From Cellvibrionaceae bacterium (GTDB lineage Bacteria; Pseudomonadota; Gammaproteobacteria; Pseudomonadales; Cellvibrionaceae), in contig JANQJP010000015.1 of NCBI GenBank assembly GCA_028281575.1, forward strand, positions 1 to 64,000: 64,000 nucleotides of DNA, in the 5' to 3' direction. Below the pieces are notes generated by a model. That model was not told where the DNA came from. It did no database searches and saw only the letters and a list, made by a program, of their open reading frames with translations. Positions 1 through 44,623 of the stretch are shown piece after piece. Position numbers and translations under genes: made by a program. Position 1 is the first letter of the stretch. Each line of letters opens with the position of its first letter.

Positions 1-40
1 TTCCCAGTTATGGTTTGAAAGCAGCTGACAGAAACCAGTA

Positions 41-100
41 CAGTGAAACCTGTCTATAGTGGTCACTGTATGAGCAGGCCACTCCCCTATTAGCAGCCAG
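41..100. repeat. Partial arm of a pogo/Tc1-like inverted-repeat element
   Basis: The sequence from 41 starts cagtgaaacctgtctatag just after a TA dinucleotide. It matches the 5' arms of the elements at 290 and 1,170. No clear opposite arm was found nearby, so this is probably a solo or truncated copy. The end coordinate is approximate. Confidence 0.4.
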
Positions 101-289
101 TGGCCACCTTTCTACAACAGCCAATTTTTTTTTCGGCCCAAGGGTGATTAGTTTCTTTTGATAGCACCAATGTTTGCTGTCTGCAATGAGTGTAATCAGA
201 TAGGGCCTGATAATATATCAAATACGCAACCCTATGTACATGCAGCACATTTCATATATATATTGAGTGAAGGGTGCTTGTGGTTAGAC

Positions 290-441
290 CAGTGAAACCT
301 CTGATAGAGGGATCCTCCAAGAAAGTGGCTCCCTCCCTTCAAAGACACTTTTCTGGACCCAGTTTCCAAAAAATAGGAAAACCTCTCAACAGGGAGCAGA
401 ATCACTAACCCCAAAATGTCCTTAGCAGAGAGGCTCCACTG
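290..441. mobile_element. MITE-like element, copy 1 (about 152 bp)
   Basis: The left arm cagtgaaacctctgatag and the right arm agcagagaggctccactg (whose complement reads cagtggagcctctctgct) are imperfect terminal inverted repeats. TA follows the right end; on the left the base pair is AC, so the target duplication has decayed. It holds no coding capacity. The arms resemble those of pogo/Tigger-type DNA transposons and their non-autonomous derivatives in animal genomes. That family assignment is from memory of arm sequence only. Confidence 0.5.
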
Positions 442-1169
442 TAGCAGAACAGTGTTTACATTATTCCAATTAGGCAATAATTTGCTTGAGTAGTTTAAAG
501 CTGTGATATACAGTTGGTGGCATGTTGTAGGTCAATGAAAGGTGCCTAATTGCAAGGCGTGTCATAATTGAGCCTATTGTTGAAATTCTCAGCTTATTAC
601 CTTTGTCAAAGCACTATGTACACGGTTATAGTAACTTTGAAATTGGTGTGCTTAAATTGTCTGGAGCTAGCTGTGGTGGGACATTGTAATGTTAATATAC
701 TCTCTGCTTTTCAAAAGGTGCATTTTTTGGTCCTAAATGTGCCTGCAAAACTAATTTTATGACCTGTTAGGAGAAGTCACATAGGGTATCAATCAATTTT
801 CAAGGATGCATTTTCACCCTCTGACCTAGCAATGAAATTCCAGCCAGGAGTTGTGATAGACCCCACACAGTTATATGAAAGTACTGAACAGGGTCTTGGC
901 CTGCTCTATTATGGTTGTATATAGCTCAAGTGCAAGCCACCTGTATGTAGTACGGGTAAATTTTAAGGCCTTCTTCTTTCCCCATTTTATGACCTAAACG
1001 TCCTTCCTCACCGAATTCCCAGAATCCCCATCCTAATTAATGCCTACTTCCCAAGTTTCCTACTTCCATCATGATTCCCTGTGCTTCCATCATGATTCTA
1101 TAATATGGCTTTAAAATATCCAAGTAATTTCCTGGGACAAGGGAGTTCGGATAAGGAGATTTACCTGTA

Positions 1170-1345
1170 CAGTGAAACCTCTTAAAGATCACTCCGAATA
1201 AAGGACACTCTCCCAACAAAGAACACTTTTTTCTTAACCCTTTTCCCGTAGCAATAGTTCATATTAACCTCCAGTGAAAGGACGACTTCTCAGCAGAGGA
1301 CAAAATGGCTGGATTCAAAGTGTCCTTTTCAGAGAGGTTCCTCTG
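1170..1345. mobile_element. MITE-like element, copy 2 (about 176 bp), TA flanked
   Basis: The left arm begins cagtgaaacctcttaaag at 1,170. The right arm ends at 1,345 and its complement begins cagaggaacctctctgaa. TA dinucleotides flank both ends (1,168-1,169 and 1,346-1,347), as expected for Tc1/mariner/pogo insertion. The interior is related to copy 1, including phrases such as aaagtgtcctt and gcagaggacaaaatg. It is non-coding and non-autonomous. Confidence 0.55.
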
Positions 1346-1445
1346 TAGTAATTCATACCCCAACAGCCAAAATCTTTGTTTCACCCACCCTTATAATCAT
1401 GTCTGGACATGGTTGCAAACATTCAAAAAAATTTTTCCTCTGCAG

Positions 1446-1571
1446 GAGATGGATGATCTGTCTTCAGTTCAACCAGTTCGCGACCCAGGTCAAAGTTCAA
1501 CAGGAGGCGTGGCCTCAACTGAAGGCAGTAACAGTAGTTTGAATGGAGCACCAACTCAAAGCTCATCTTGA
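1446..1571 (+). CDS. Putative terminal exon of an unidentified animal gene
   Basis: A pyrimidine-rich tract followed by ctgcag ends at 1,445. An open frame runs from GAG at 1,446 to the TGA at 1,569-1,571. It encodes a 41-residue Ser/Gly/Thr-rich tail starting EMDDLSSVQPVRDPG and ending APTQSSS. The composition suits a disordered C-terminus. I do not recognise the protein. No AATAAA signal is visible on this strand before the converging gene at 1,883. The acceptor and the sharp end of low-complexity bias are the only evidence, so this is tentative. Confidence 0.4.
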   Translation, partial: EMDDLSSVQPVRDPGQSSTGGVASTEGSNSSLNGAPTQSSS

Positions 1572-1831
1572 TAGAGTGTAAAATCTTTAGAACTAGTATT
1601 TTATGGCAGTCTATCACTTACAATGGTCATACAATTGTGGTAAATTGTAAAAAATTTTGTGACAAAAAGCACTTTGCCTGGTCATTTTTTTTTTTTACAC
1701 AGCATCATAAAAACAGTAAGATTTTATTGATAGTCTTGCATGAATTTATGGTGGTTAACTAAGAAATGAAGTTGTGCATATAATGACGTAAAAAATTGTG
1801 CAGAATTCATGTGATCACTAAAAAAACATAT

Positions 1832-1837
1832 TTTATT
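1832..1837 (-). promoter_or_regulatory. Poly(A) signal for the Rolling stone-like gene
   Basis: The complementary strand reads AATAAA here, 46 bases past the stop codon of the exon that ends at 1,883. This is the usual place for a short 3' UTR in animals. Confidence 0.45.
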
Positions 1838-1882
1838 AATTCTTAAAAAAAAAATTTAAAAAATATGGTGACAGCATGTATG

Positions 1883-2809
1883 TCATACTTTGGATATCTC
1901 GTCTATCACTATATCCCCATTATGATTGGTCCCTTCTCGGCTTTCTCGAAAGGGGTGTCGTCTTACGTCCCGAAAACAGCAACCAATTCGAGTGACTATC
2001 ACGTCTCGTAGCCAGGCCAGCAGGAAAAGGCCAAGATAAATTGGAATGCATCCCACGGCAATGACTACGACAAACAAGATTGCTAAAGGCAGGTCGTTGC
2101 CGTAATCAAGAGCGCCGTAAATATAGGGGTCACCCAAGTGACTGGTGCCACCAGCGGCAAAGTAGATGATGGTGAAGATGACATACACGATAGCAAATAT
2201 TGTGGCATAGAGTGTGTGGAGGAGCTGGTATGGGATTCGGGACAGGAGCAAATCAATGAAGACGATTAGGACGTTGATACCGTGGAGATGGATAGCCGGT
2301 GCATCCAGTCCTGAACAGGTTTCTTTGACGGCCATTTCTCCACTAGCTGAACCATTGCTTGATGCATTGTCACCGCTCATTTCTGAAGCTGTCCCTGCCC
2401 CACCCATTTCACCGTTGTCATCGTCGTCACACGGTGAGTAAACGAATAACCAATACCCGAGAAATATCAAAATGGCGCTAGCATTGGCCACAATGTAAAG
2501 ACACCAGATGATTTTGACATACCAGCCGATATTGTCCTGTTTGTAGACCCGTGCAAGCGGGAAGTCCTTTTTCGGCAGGTAACAAACAAGCCTCTCTCTT
2601 TTGGTGTAGTACACAATGCCGTAGGCGACACACAAGATGGCAAGAGAGCCCATGCTGATTGTGAGAAGGGCAAAGCCTAGGTTGGATAGGAAGATAGGCC
2701 AATGGGGCCCAAATTCATCGTGTCTGGCGTAGATGTGGAGGATGAGCCATATAAGGAGGTAGAAGAAGACTAGGACTCTGTAGACCATGAAGACTGGAAG
2801 ATAGAGCCA
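1883..2809 (-). CDS. Rolling stone (Rost)-like multispanning membrane protein, large 3' exon of an animal gene
   Basis: The reading frame encodes a protein of several hydrophobic spans. It starts at WLYLPVFMVYR, and the last third contains YGALDYGNDLP followed by a long hydrophobic span and a basic tail. This layout (YR in helix 1, a loop ending in a LDY/LDW-like motif before the final helix) matches animal Rolling stone proteins, whose function in myoblast fusion is known from Drosophila. The frame stays open to an ATG at 2,890, but the codons upstream of 2,809 are Ser/Pro/Cys-rich because they read a polypyrimidine tract ending CACAG at 2,810. I therefore take 2,809 as the exon edge and the first 27 codons as intron. 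An acidic, low-complexity insert (CDDDDNGEMGG region) lies in one loop. The upstream exons are not in this window. Confidence 0.6.
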   Translation of the reverse strand, partial: WLYLPVFMVYRVLVFFYLLIWLILHIYARHDEFGPHWPIFLSNLGFALLTISMGSLAILCVAYGIVYYTKRERLVCYLPKKDFPLARVYKQDNIGWYVKIIWCLYIVANASAILIFLGYWLFVYSPCDDDDNGEMGGAGTASEMSGDNASSNGSASGEMAVKETCSGLDAPAIHLHGINVLIVFIDLLLSRIPYQLLHTLYATIFAIVYVIFTIIYFAAGGTSHLGDPYIYGALDYGNDLPLAILFVVVIAVGCIPIYLGLFLLAWLRDVIVTRIGCCFRDVRRHPFRESREGTNHNGDIVIDEISKV

Positions 2810-2866
2810 CTGTGAGGGGGAGGAAGATGAAGAGAGAGGGCAGGAGGACACAGGTGGAGTGGAATA

Positions 2867-2887
2867 AAGCGAAGCACTGCTTCGCTT
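2867..2887. repeat. Perfect 10-bp inverted repeat with 1-base spacer at the host/bacterium join
   Basis: The sequence aagcgaagca, one base, then tgcttcgctt forms an uninterrupted palindrome. It sits where intron-like sequence of the animal gene gives way to bacterial sequence. It may be natural, but a hairpin at a chimeric junction is also typical of template switching during amplification. Confidence 0.6.
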
Positions 2888-2998
2888 CACGTAACGACCC
2901 TTATCTATGATTTTGAGTTGCAGGGATTTATGCGTTTTCCGAACCGTCTCCCCTAACTTCAGGCGTATCGAGGATACGAATTAAAAAATAATCGTGAC

Positions 2999-3559
2999 TT
3001 AACTGCCTGTCTTTAATTCCCGAAATAACCATGCTTTCGCGCTGCGAATTTCTCGTTCGACTGTTTTTACTGATGTGTCAATCGCGTCGGCAATTTGTTG
3101 ATTTTCCATGCCGGCAAATACACGCATTTCCATCATTGCAGCGCCGCGTTTGCTCAGGGATTTATATTTATTGAGGGCGTCGTCGATGTCGATGATTTCA
3201 AACTGATTGCCGACCCCGAGAACTTCTTCATTGAGGGTGATGTTTTGTTGGCCGCCGCCGCGCTTGTCTCGGGCTTTTGCGCGTGCGTGGTCAACGAGCA
3301 CGCGGCGCATTAAAGTGCTTAATATACATAAAAAGTGCTGGCGATCCTGCCAGGCGACGTTGCTGCCAAGCAGACGTTCATACGCTTCGTTTATCAATGC
3401 GGTGGATTGCAGGGTGTGTCCAGCATTTTCGCTGCACATATGCCGGGCGGCAATTTGTTTTAGCTGGGGGTAAACTGTTTCAAACAATTTCGCTGAAGCG
3501 TCACCGTCGCCTGCCTGCCATGCGTGAAGAAGTTGTGTAAGTTCCTGGGCTTGTGTCAT
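2999..3559 (-). CDS. ECF-type RNA polymerase sigma factor (kinase-associated subgroup)
   Basis: This 186-residue protein should direct RNA polymerase to a small regulon. The N-terminal half holds sigma region 2 (LINEAYERLL through FLCILSTLMRRVLVDHARAK), and the C-terminal half holds a region 4 helix-turn-helix (GMENQQIADAIDTSVKTVE). The pattern of region 2 followed by VDHARAKARDKRGGG is that of the Sig-70_X6 type ECF factors (TIGR02999), which often sit beside Ser/Thr protein kinases instead of classical anti-sigma factors. Here a kinase lies 0.9 kb away, divergent. The gene follows the outer-membrane protein gene by 9 bases on the same strand, so the two are probably cotranscribed. It is the last bacterial gene before the join to animal DNA. 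Confidence 0.85.
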   Translation of the reverse strand: MTQAQELTQLLHAWQAGDGDASAKLFETVYPQLKQIAARHMCSENAGHTLQSTALINEAYERLLGSNVAWQDRQHFLCILSTLMRRVLVDHARAKARDKRGGGQQNITLNEEVLGVGNQFEIIDIDDALNKYKSLSKRGAAMMEMRVFAGMENQQIADAIDTSVKTVEREIRSAKAWLFRELKTGS

Positions 3560-3568
3560 GGCCGGCCA

Positions 3569-4420
3569 TTAAAAAAGATAGACAACACCGACGAGGAGCG
3601 ATTCGTAGGTTTCGTCGGCATCGAATTCCAAATCTAAAAATTCAATTGTTTGTTCGTAATCGTTAATCTTATATTGCGCTTGGAAATAAAGGTTTTCGGT
3701 AATTGGACTAAGAAAGTGTGCGCCAAAACTGTAGCCACGGCTTACGCCTTGTTGCACGCCAGTGAGATCGTCGAATTCCAAATCTGGGTCGATAAGTCCA
3801 GCAAGATCGATGATATCAAATGGGCTATCGAGGATGTCTCCAGCGTCATCATCATCGTCGTCATCAGCAACGTCGCTAAAGAACTGGTTTTCGGTGTCGA
3901 GGTCGGCGTAGGCGAGCGAAAGGCCAAAAACATTTTTATTGATAACTTTGGTATAGCCGACACCGATAAAAAAACCGTCTTGCTGATAGGATTCATCGCG
4001 TTGTAGGCCACCTAAGCCAATATTATCGAGTTCCTCAGGGTCGCCGGGAGACAAGGACAGTTCTGTTTCGTTATCTTTATATCCAGCAAAAACAGACCAC
4101 GACGGCGTAAACCGATATCCAAAAGTAAAATCGATGTCGTAGCGGTTGGCGCTGCCGATATCCTCCTCTTCTGAAATTGAGATATCCTGCATATTGCGCG
4201 AATAGGAAAGTGTGGAAAAGAAGTCTTTATGTGACGCGCCGACAGACACTTGGGCAATGCGGTAGCTCAAAATACTGTCGAGTTTTTTTGTGTAGTCAAA
4301 GCGACCAAAGCCGGTTTGAAAGCCCACATTAAATTTTGCAGCAGATGCGCCGATGGAGATCAGGCCGGAACTTAAGGCCAAGCCAAAACAAAGTCCTGCG
4401 TGCAAACGAGTCACCGCCAT
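3569..4420 (-). CDS. Outer-membrane beta-barrel protein with an acidic insert
   Basis: From the ATG at 4,420 this is a 283-residue secreted protein. I chose that start because GGGGAAAGG precedes it and a Sec signal peptide ending GASA follows; a frame extension to 4,582 would run into the divergent kinase gene. Alternating hydrophobic residues, repeated aromatic strand ends and a C-terminal VVYLF (final Phe) mark a small beta-barrel. One loop has a run of seven Asp (DDDDDDDAGD), which could bind divalent cations or face the outside as a flexible acidic patch. The substrate is unknown. Its location between the sigma factor and the kinase suggests that it is part of, or the main target of, that signalling pair. 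Confidence 0.7.
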   Translation of the reverse strand: MAVTRLHAGLCFGLALSSGLISIGASAAKFNVGFQTGFGRFDYTKKLDSILSYRIAQVSVGASHKDFFSTLSYSRNMQDISISEEEDIGSANRYDIDFTFGYRFTPSWSVFAGYKDNETELSLSPGDPEELDNIGLGGLQRDESYQQDGFFIGVGYTKVINKNVFGLSLAYADLDTENQFFSDVADDDDDDDAGDILDSPFDIIDLAGLIDPDLEFDDLTGVQQGVSRGYSFGAHFLSPITENLYFQAQYKINDYEQTIEFLDLEFDADETYESLLVGVVYLF

Positions 4421-4471: not shown

Positions 4472-6550
4472 TTGGCTTCTCAAGGTCGGTCGTCGCCTGA
4501 ACTTATGCTGCAAATTCCCGGATATACAATCATACGTGAGCTTGGGCGCGGCGGCATGGCCACGGTATATCTGGCCGTTCAAAACAGCGTTAACCGACGC
4601 GTCGCGTTAAAGGTTTTATTACATTCAGCGACTGGCCGGGATGCCGATATCTCAGCGCGGTTTATGCGCGAAGCGCGTATCGTGGCGCAGTTACAACATC
4701 CCAATATTGTCGCGATTTACGATGTCAGCGAGTTCGACGCCGGTGTTTATATGGCGATGGAGTATTTGCCTGGCGGCACTCTGGCGGAACGCTGTTCCAA
4801 CACATTTATTGCACGTGACGCACTGCTGCTTATTGGAGAGCTTTGTAACGCATTGGACTACGCGCATGCGCGCGGTTTTATTCATCGCGATATTAAGCCG
4901 GACAATATTTTATTTCGTGAAGACGACACTCTGGTGCTCAGTGATTTTGGCATTGCGCGCGCGCTGCAATCTGATACGCGCATGACGCGCACGGGAATGA
5001 TTTTAGGTACGCCGCGTTATATGAGCCCGGAGCAAATTCAAGGCGTGACTTTGGATGCGCGCAGTGATCTTTATAGTCTGGGCATACTCTGTTTCCAGCT
5101 GTTGACAGGCCAAACGCCATTTTCGGCGGAAAATGTCATGGCGATTGGTATGCAGCATCTTTCACAGCCCGTGCCGGAGTTGCCGAAAGCTCTCGCTTTT
5201 CTGCAGCCTTTCGTGAATAAACTGTTGGCAAAAGAGTTGGGTGCCAGGTATACCAGCGCGGTTGATGTTGCCGAGCAGGTAAAAGCGATGCTTGCTGAAA
5301 ATGAAGCGGCGCTTGATCAGTGTTGGTTCGATGCCTATCGGGCGCCGGATCGGGATGGCTCGACAGGCCATTCGCTTTTAGAGCTAAAACACGTGAAGCA
5401 CCCTTTGGTTCGGCCTTTAATACTTGGTGGTGTTTTAGCGGTCGCGGCGATATTTGGGTATTTCTTATTTAATCCTTTTTCCCAGAGCCTTGATTCGTCG
5501 TCTCCCCAAGCCAGGTTGAATTCGGGTTCCAGTTTTAATCCGGTAATAGGGAATAATGCGCTACAGTTGAGCACACGCGACGAAAAACTTGCGAGGGCTC
5601 AACAGCTCGCACTGGAAGGAAAGGTGCTCGCGACTTCGGGCGAGCACGCGATTGGTCTTTATCGCGAATTGCTCAAAGAGACGCCCGAGGACGATGTTTT
5701 GAGTGCAGCGCTCGATACACTAATCGCTTCGCAACAAAACCGCCTGGACCTTTATATTAAAGCGGGTGATGTTGCGAGTGCGGAAGCGCTTCTTGTGGCG
5801 CTTAAACAGCATACAGATTTGGGGGAAGGGCTTGCTGTATTTGAAGCGAAGTTAATGGCACAAAAAAAACGTATCGCTAACGCTGCGCGCGTAGACGAGT
5901 ATTTAACACTTGCTCGTGCAGCGGAACAACGCGGAGAATTATGGCAGCCGCGGGAGACAAATGCCGCTTACTACTACGGGCGGATTTTAAATCTCGATCC
6001 TCAAGACCGCTTTGCGACTACACGTTTGGTGAGAATTAAAACGTCATTAGATGCGAGTATTCGCGATGCGATTGAGGAAGAGCAGCCTGAAAAAGCCAGT
6101 GAGTTACTGGCATATTTTGATCTGGTCGAAGTGGATATGTCTGCTCGCCAGTCTGCTAAAGATACATTGGCGAAAGAAATAGCTGTCATAAAAAGTGCAA
6201 TTGCGCGCAGGGAGAAAGCGCTGCGAGATTTTGTAGAACTGCAGCAAAAGTTTTCCCATATTATTGATGATCCTGAAATGCGCGCTGATAAAGCCCAACA
6301 GGCAGTGGATCTTCTGAATCGAATGGCCGAGCTGCAACCGACAGAAAATGTATCACCGATGCAGCGTTCGCTTGAAGAACGTGTGTCGGTGCGGGTGGGT
6401 GGTCTGATTAAAACCAAGTCCTTCGATGATGCTCTGGCGCTGATGGATGCTGCAGAGTCTCTATTGGGCGAGACACCCAAATTTCGCAATTTCAAGAAAG
6501 ATATTGAGGAAGAAAAAAATAGTGAAAGCCTAATGCCCTTGTCGTTCTAA
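4472..6550 (+). CDS. Transmembrane Ser/Thr protein kinase (PknB-type)
   Basis: This 692-residue Hanks-type kinase has a glycine loop GRGGMATVY (about residues 25-33), the ATP lysine in VALKVL (47), the catalytic loop HRDIKPDN (138-145), DFG (158-160) and GTPRYMSPEQ in the activation segment. A single membrane span near residues 311-333 separates the cytoplasmic kinase from a roughly 350-residue periplasmic part. That part is helical, charged and TPR-like and carries no PASTA repeats. The start is taken as TTG at 4,472; an in-frame ATG at 4,505 is the alternative, and both lack a strong ribosome site. It is divergent from the barrel/sigma pair across 51 bases, so promoters are shared or overlap. 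Phosphorylation of the sigma factor by this kinase is a reasonable inference from known ECF-kinase pairs but is not shown by the sequence. Confidence 0.85.
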   Translation: MASQGRSSPELMLQIPGYTIIRELGRGGMATVYLAVQNSVNRRVALKVLLHSATGRDADISARFMREARIVAQLQHPNIVAIYDVSEFDAGVYMAMEYLPGGTLAERCSNTFIARDALLLIGELCNALDYAHARGFIHRDIKPDNILFREDDTLVLSDFGIARALQSDTRMTRTGMILGTPRYMSPEQIQGVTLDARSDLYSLGILCFQLLTGQTPFSAENVMAIGMQHLSQPVPELPKALAFLQPFVNKLLAKELGARYTSAVDVAEQVKAMLAENEAALDQCWFDAYRAPDRDGSTGHSLLELKHVKHPLVRPLILGGVLAVAAIFGYFLFNPFSQSLDSSSPQARLNSGSSFNPVIGNNALQLSTRDEKLARAQQLALEGKVLATSGEHAIGLYRELLKETPEDDVLSAALDTLIASQQNRLDLYIKAGDVASAEALLVALKQHTDLGEGLAVFEAKLMAQKKRIANAARVDEYLTLARAAEQRGELWQPRETNAAYYYGRILNLDPQDRFATTRLVRIKTSLDASIRDAIEEEQPEKASELLAYFDLVEVDMSARQSAKDTLAKEIAVIKSAIARREKALRDFVELQQKFSHIIDDPEMRADKAQQAVDLLNRMAELQPTENVSPMQRSLEERVSVRVGGLIKTKSFDDALALMDAAESLLGETPKFRNFKKDIEEEKNSESLMPLSF

Positions 6551-44266: not shown

Positions 44267-44623
44267 TGGTGGAGGCGGGGGGATTTGAACCCCCGTCCGT
44301 CAGCACTACTTCCGCGGCTCTACATGTTTAGGTCCGTTTATTGATTTAACTCTTTGCAGCCCAACGGGCAGGACGTAAAGAGCGAGTCTACTGAATATTT
44401 AACCTGCCAGCCGCAGACGTGCCTTTGGGCGATCCAGTTCTAGATGACAGTCAATTACGCGGCACTGGCACCTTGTAAATGACCGCTAGCAAGCGATTAA
44501 GCTGCTAGAGCGTAAGAATCGTCGTTTGCGACTATTCTGTTACAGCTTTGGATTAAGGTGATTCGCTGTCATCACCACATGCACCTTGGACCTCGTTACC
44601 GGCGTCGAATCCTAATCGCCCCC
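44267..44623 (-). ncRNA. ssrA: Transfer-messenger RNA (tmRNA)
   Basis: The complementary strand begins GGGGGCGATTAGGATTCGAC at 44,623 and ends with a T-arm of the form GATTTGAACCCCCG's complement and a genome-encoded CCA at 44,267, giving a one-piece tmRNA of 357 nucleotides. The tag frame encodes ANDDSYALAA then TAA (about 44,487-44,523 region). It rescues stalled ribosomes with SmpB, whose gene lies 18 kb away at 62,888-63,367 and not next to it. No integrase lies downstream, so this copy of a favoured integration site appears unused within the window. Confidence 0.95.

Follow-up and report, generated by a model that had tools for sequence, protein, structure and literature searches.

Animal DNA joined to the left end of a Cellvibrionaceae contig at a dispersed structured repeat is almost certainly an artefact rather than a gene transfer

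Introduction

Does a bacterial contig that opens with animal introns and exons record the movement of DNA between an animal and a bacterium, or a false join between the genomes of two organisms that shared a sample? The question is raised by the window analyzed here, a stretch of 64,000 nucleotides that comprises bases 1–64000 of contig C52 (95,480 bases), such that the first base of the window is also the first base of the contig. C52 is part of a bacterial genome of 3.89 Mb in 102 contigs that is 99.86% complete and 0.36% contaminated. If true, an animal-to-bacterium transfer would be remarkable; nothing in the present analysis supports a transfer, and the join is almost certainly an ordinary artefact.

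Composition and Gene Content of the Left End

The initial annotation claimed a change of DNA type near the left end of the window, and this change is real. The tetranucleotide distance of bases 1–2852 from the rest lies 8.2 s.d. beyond that of bacterial segments of the same size. The CpG observed/expected ratio is 0.42 in bases 1–2852 and 0.21 in their non-coding part (1–1882), as opposed to 1.25 for the rest and 0.96–1.41 for 2,852-base segments elsewhere in the window. TpG and CpA are both in excess in 1–1882 (1.27 each), and this part harbors no open frame of at least 100 aa. To the right of 2,853, the sequence is gene-dense, with 52–99% of the bases of sampled segments in open frames of at least 100 aa and a bacterial CpG content throughout. 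Composition and gene type switch abruptly at a single point. Bases 1–2852 are unaltered DNA of the methylated-animal type and occur once in the genome (Table 1).

The intron and exon structure that had been described left of the join is likewise borne out. On the minus strand, a single exon, open throughout, scores above the curated cut-off against the Rost (“rolling stone”) profile; it is the last coding exon of an animal gene for a membrane protein of this family. A splice acceptor, CTGCCCTCTCTCTTCATCTTCCTCCCCCTCACAG, precedes it, with an extended pyrimidine tract in which 88% of 42 nt on the minus strand are pyrimidines; hence the sequence up to approximately 2852 is the 3′ end of an intron. 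A second gene terminates at 1571 on the plus strand; its putative last coding exon (1446–1571) follows the acceptor TTCCTCTGCAG, and the two genes would thus be convergent. The bacterial-looking “ORF” at 1883–2890 is an animal exon, followed by an intron and then by a bacterial repeat. Short repeats with CAGTGAAACCT are found at 40, 289, and 1169, and the repeat pattern ACAGTGAAACCTNT of the animal side has exact matches, genome-wide, solely in the first 1.2 kb of C52.

Rost was detected in none of the 368 other genomes of the class, so that C52 is the sole carrier among the 369 searched. No Rost relatives were found among solved structures or among viral contigs.

The host is likely a sponge, on the basis of the strength of the CpG depletion, the compact convergent genes, and the probable symbiont setting. 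Sponge genomes can show strong CpG methylation and CpG depletion (PMC7385117). The bacterium is probably associated with an animal. Among the titles and abstracts returned by literature searches on Exilibacterium and on Cellvibrionaceae in sponges, none deals with the join or the repeat.

Table 1. Features of the window and of the dispersed repeat in the genome
Feature	Position	Strand	Basis
Host (animal) DNA, foreign to the bacterium	1–2852	.	Composition, single copy, runs to the physical end of C52
Putative last coding exon of second animal gene (EMDDLSSVQPVRDPGQSSTGGVASTEGSNSSLNGAPTQSSS, then stop)	1446–1571	+	Acceptor TTTTTCCTCTGCAG before the exon; sequence read directly
Last coding exon of animal Rost membrane-protein gene	1883–2809	−	PF21534 Rost, E 9.3e-13, 48.6 bits vs cut-off 26.8
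3′ end of the intron preceding the Rost exon	2810–2852	−	Pyrimidine tract and AG acceptor (CTTCCTCCCCCTCACAG directly before TGG), truncated at the join
Join	2849–2853	.	Comparison with dispersed repeat copies
Right half of dispersed structured repeat, including palindrome 2867–2887; left half of this copy absent	2853–2950	+	About 40 genomic places align from 2853 or a few bases off
ECF sigma factor, first bacterial gene	2999–3559	−	TIGR02999, 190 bits vs cut-off 126; PF07638
Full repeat copies, examples	L097 G000:C99:8772-8984; L098 G000:C48:16889-17099; L125 G000:C102:101860-102160
Contigs starting at repeat copies	C2, C10, C13, C16, C55, C56, C69, C84, C91
Contigs ending at repeat copies	C6, C9, C12, C19, C32, C38, C77, C83

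The Join and the Dispersed Repeat

The foreign part had been taken to extend to 2880 and the bacterial side to open with an operon. The boundary belongs at about 2852, and what lies first on the bacterial side is half of a dispersed structured repeat, its right half, which runs from 2853 to approximately 2950. Starting at 2853 or a few bases away, this half aligns to about 40 further genomic places at 75–92% identity. In other copies of the repeat, the left half ends in GGAGCTACAGG directly before GGTGGAG, while in the window the animal intron replaces the left half. The join thus falls where the right half of the repeat begins, immediately before its hairpin. An ACAGG microhomology leaves it ambiguous by a few bases, at approximately 2849–2853 (the repeat copies read CTACAGGGGTGGAG and the window reads ACACAGGTGGAG).

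A perfect 10-bp palindrome had also been placed at the junction. It is exact (AAGCGAAGCA-C-TGCTTCGCTT, 2867–2887), and hairpins with arms of 10 and a loop of 0–5 number two in the window vs none in three shuffles. It is not, however, a feature of the join, since the same hairpin recurs in dozens of copies of the dispersed repeat.

The repeat is a multi-branched long hairpin of approximately 200 bp that is present in dozens of copies. A search with a full-length copy lists 57 matches under a capped scoring, some of which are partial pieces of the same copies, such that 57 is not the exact copy number. Of 14 copies that have long flanks left and right (the copy in the window not counted), none is located within an open frame of 150 codons, which makes the repeat intergenic. 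At least two subfamilies are present. For 13 copies from a single subfamily, pairing across the 18-bp outer stem (columns 2–19 with 196–213 of alignment A2) reaches 97%, and both sides have changed in 12 of the 18 pairs, so that the sequence varies and complementarity is kept. The covariation score of the complete structure as drawn is 0.261 vs 0.114 in shuffles, none of 500 of which reaches 0.261; with the partners slid by 1–3 columns it is at most 0.091, a comparison that favors the drawn over the slid versions because the structure was derived from the same sequences.

The repeat may represent either a structured RNA or a mobile palindromic element that is held symmetrical by templated correction, as such correction may maintain the symmetry of palindrome copies without any RNA function. 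An Rfam search of the repeat returned no family at the gathering score and only sub-threshold matches of the chance type. Some relatives within the family, including other genera, carry full-length or half copies, and more of them carry the part with the inner hairpin (query 38–80); the repeat core is present in Exilibacterium and in a gammaproteobacterial MAG. The left loop of many copies holds tandem units of approximately 47 bp (around GACTGCATGGATGCAGGAGGTAGAATAACGCAGGAGCAGTTATC) in variable number, for example, in L063, L064, and L113 (G000:C53:34370-34900) and at many contig ends, and breaks in the assembly are frequent within these units.

The Repeat at Contig Ends

At least 17 of the 204 contig ends of the genome lie within 250 bp of a repeat copy, while approximately 0.8 are expected by chance (P about 1e-18); the count is a lower bound because it was taken from search matches. 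Several of these contigs stop within the ~47-bp tandem repeats of the loop. The repeat therefore ends contigs across the assembly, and the left end of C52 is one more such end, with a host fragment added. Structured repeats of this ~200-bp family are consequently sites of contig breakage or misjoining in these bacteria.

When the complementary arm expected of the absent left half was used as a query (at most 3 mismatches), only the window itself matched, so that the true continuation was not located at another contig end. The right end of C83, which has a weak 19-base match, was considered as the partner half and was rejected, as it is another, internally deleted copy of the repeat.

Bacterial Genes Right of the Join

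The first bacterial gene, for an ECF sigma factor, has no match in three other genomes of the genus. It directly follows, on the same strand, a gene at approximately 3569–4420 (minus strand) that has no Pfam or NCBIfam match. A PknB-like Ser/Thr kinase is encoded at 4472–6550, divergent from the ECF sigma gene. Farther along the window, a tmRNA gene at 44267–44623 carries the tag ANDDSYALAA.

Origin of the Join

The reading preferred in the initial annotation, a chimera, is supported by an animal piece that is unaltered, occurs once, lies at the contig end, and is joined at a repeat that breaks contigs. We conclude with very high confidence that C52 is an in vitro or in silico chimera of host animal DNA and the left end of a bacterial contig, the latter from a gammaproteobacterium that probably belongs to the family of Exilibacterium. 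Animal DNA from the same sample would have been joined to this end, where the true bacterial sequence runs into the ~200-bp repeat, a long multi-branched hairpin in which internal tandem repeats are common. Both polymerases and assemblers would halt at such a repeat, and through one chimeric fragment or false path, the 3′ portion of an animal intron may then have taken the position of the left half, which is missing. The source of the false join could be a chimeric fragment, amplification across the hairpin, or an assembler path; we infer that the joining took place during library preparation, amplification, or assembly. Two points stand against a chimera: the arm-sequence search did not locate the left half of the repeat copy at another contig end, and the rest of the genome appears clean, as at 0.36% contamination, host DNA is not common in the assembly.

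The same join could be explained if animal DNA of the host had truly, and very recently, been transferred to the bacterial chromosome, at or via the repeat, and the far end had not been assembled. The sequence is continuous in the assembly, the bacterium is probably animal-associated, and repeats can act as recombination sites. However, a piece embedded in a chromosome would have recipient sequence on both sides, and here the animal segment reaches the first base of the contig; therefore, no bacterial flank shows an insertion. The animal DNA also retains its CpG depletion (0.21) with TpG/CpA excess, its intact splice acceptors, and its exon ends, and Rost is absent from the 368 other genomes; thus, nothing indicates that the segment has resided in a bacterium. 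Furthermore, the join falls at a repeat that breaks the assembly, and half of the repeat copy is missing. Such a transfer is, on this evidence, very improbable.

The converse event, in which a 92-kb piece of bacterial chromosome is integrated in an animal genome, would yield the same join, yet it is hardly conceivable for a contig that belongs to a 99.86% complete bacterial genome, shares a dispersed repeat family with the other contigs of that genome, and is gene-dense with bacterial CpG from 2,853 onward. Equally implausible is a left side that is bacterial after all, as a non-coding or prophage region. Its location on the contig speaks for this and nothing more, while its CpG depletion, its lack of open frames in 1–1882, its tetranucleotide composition (z 8.2), and its exon of the animal Rost family, which is absent from the 368 other searched genomes of the class, all speak against it. 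The earlier advice that the left end be treated as foreign to the bacterium fits all the evidence, with the boundary at approximately 2852, and bases 1–2852 should be dropped from the bacterial record and annotation.

Comparison with Known Systems

The left end of C52 shares with the animal Rost family (PF21534) a profile match of the last exon above the curated cut-off, and it differs in that the window has this last exon alone. The repeat resembles the dispersed palindromic repeats of bacteria (REP/BIME, ERIC, and MITE-like elements) in being intergenic, dispersed, present in many copies, and able to form hairpins. In contrast to these, it is approximately 200 nt long and multi-branched, has an outer stem that is variable yet complementary, and belongs to no Rfam family at the gathering score. 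The contig as a whole has no notable difference from the chimeric host/symbiont contigs that arise in metagenome assembly or whole-genome amplification, with which it shares an abrupt switch at a repeat or hairpin, a foreign piece at the contig end, and an unaltered eukaryotic gene structure.
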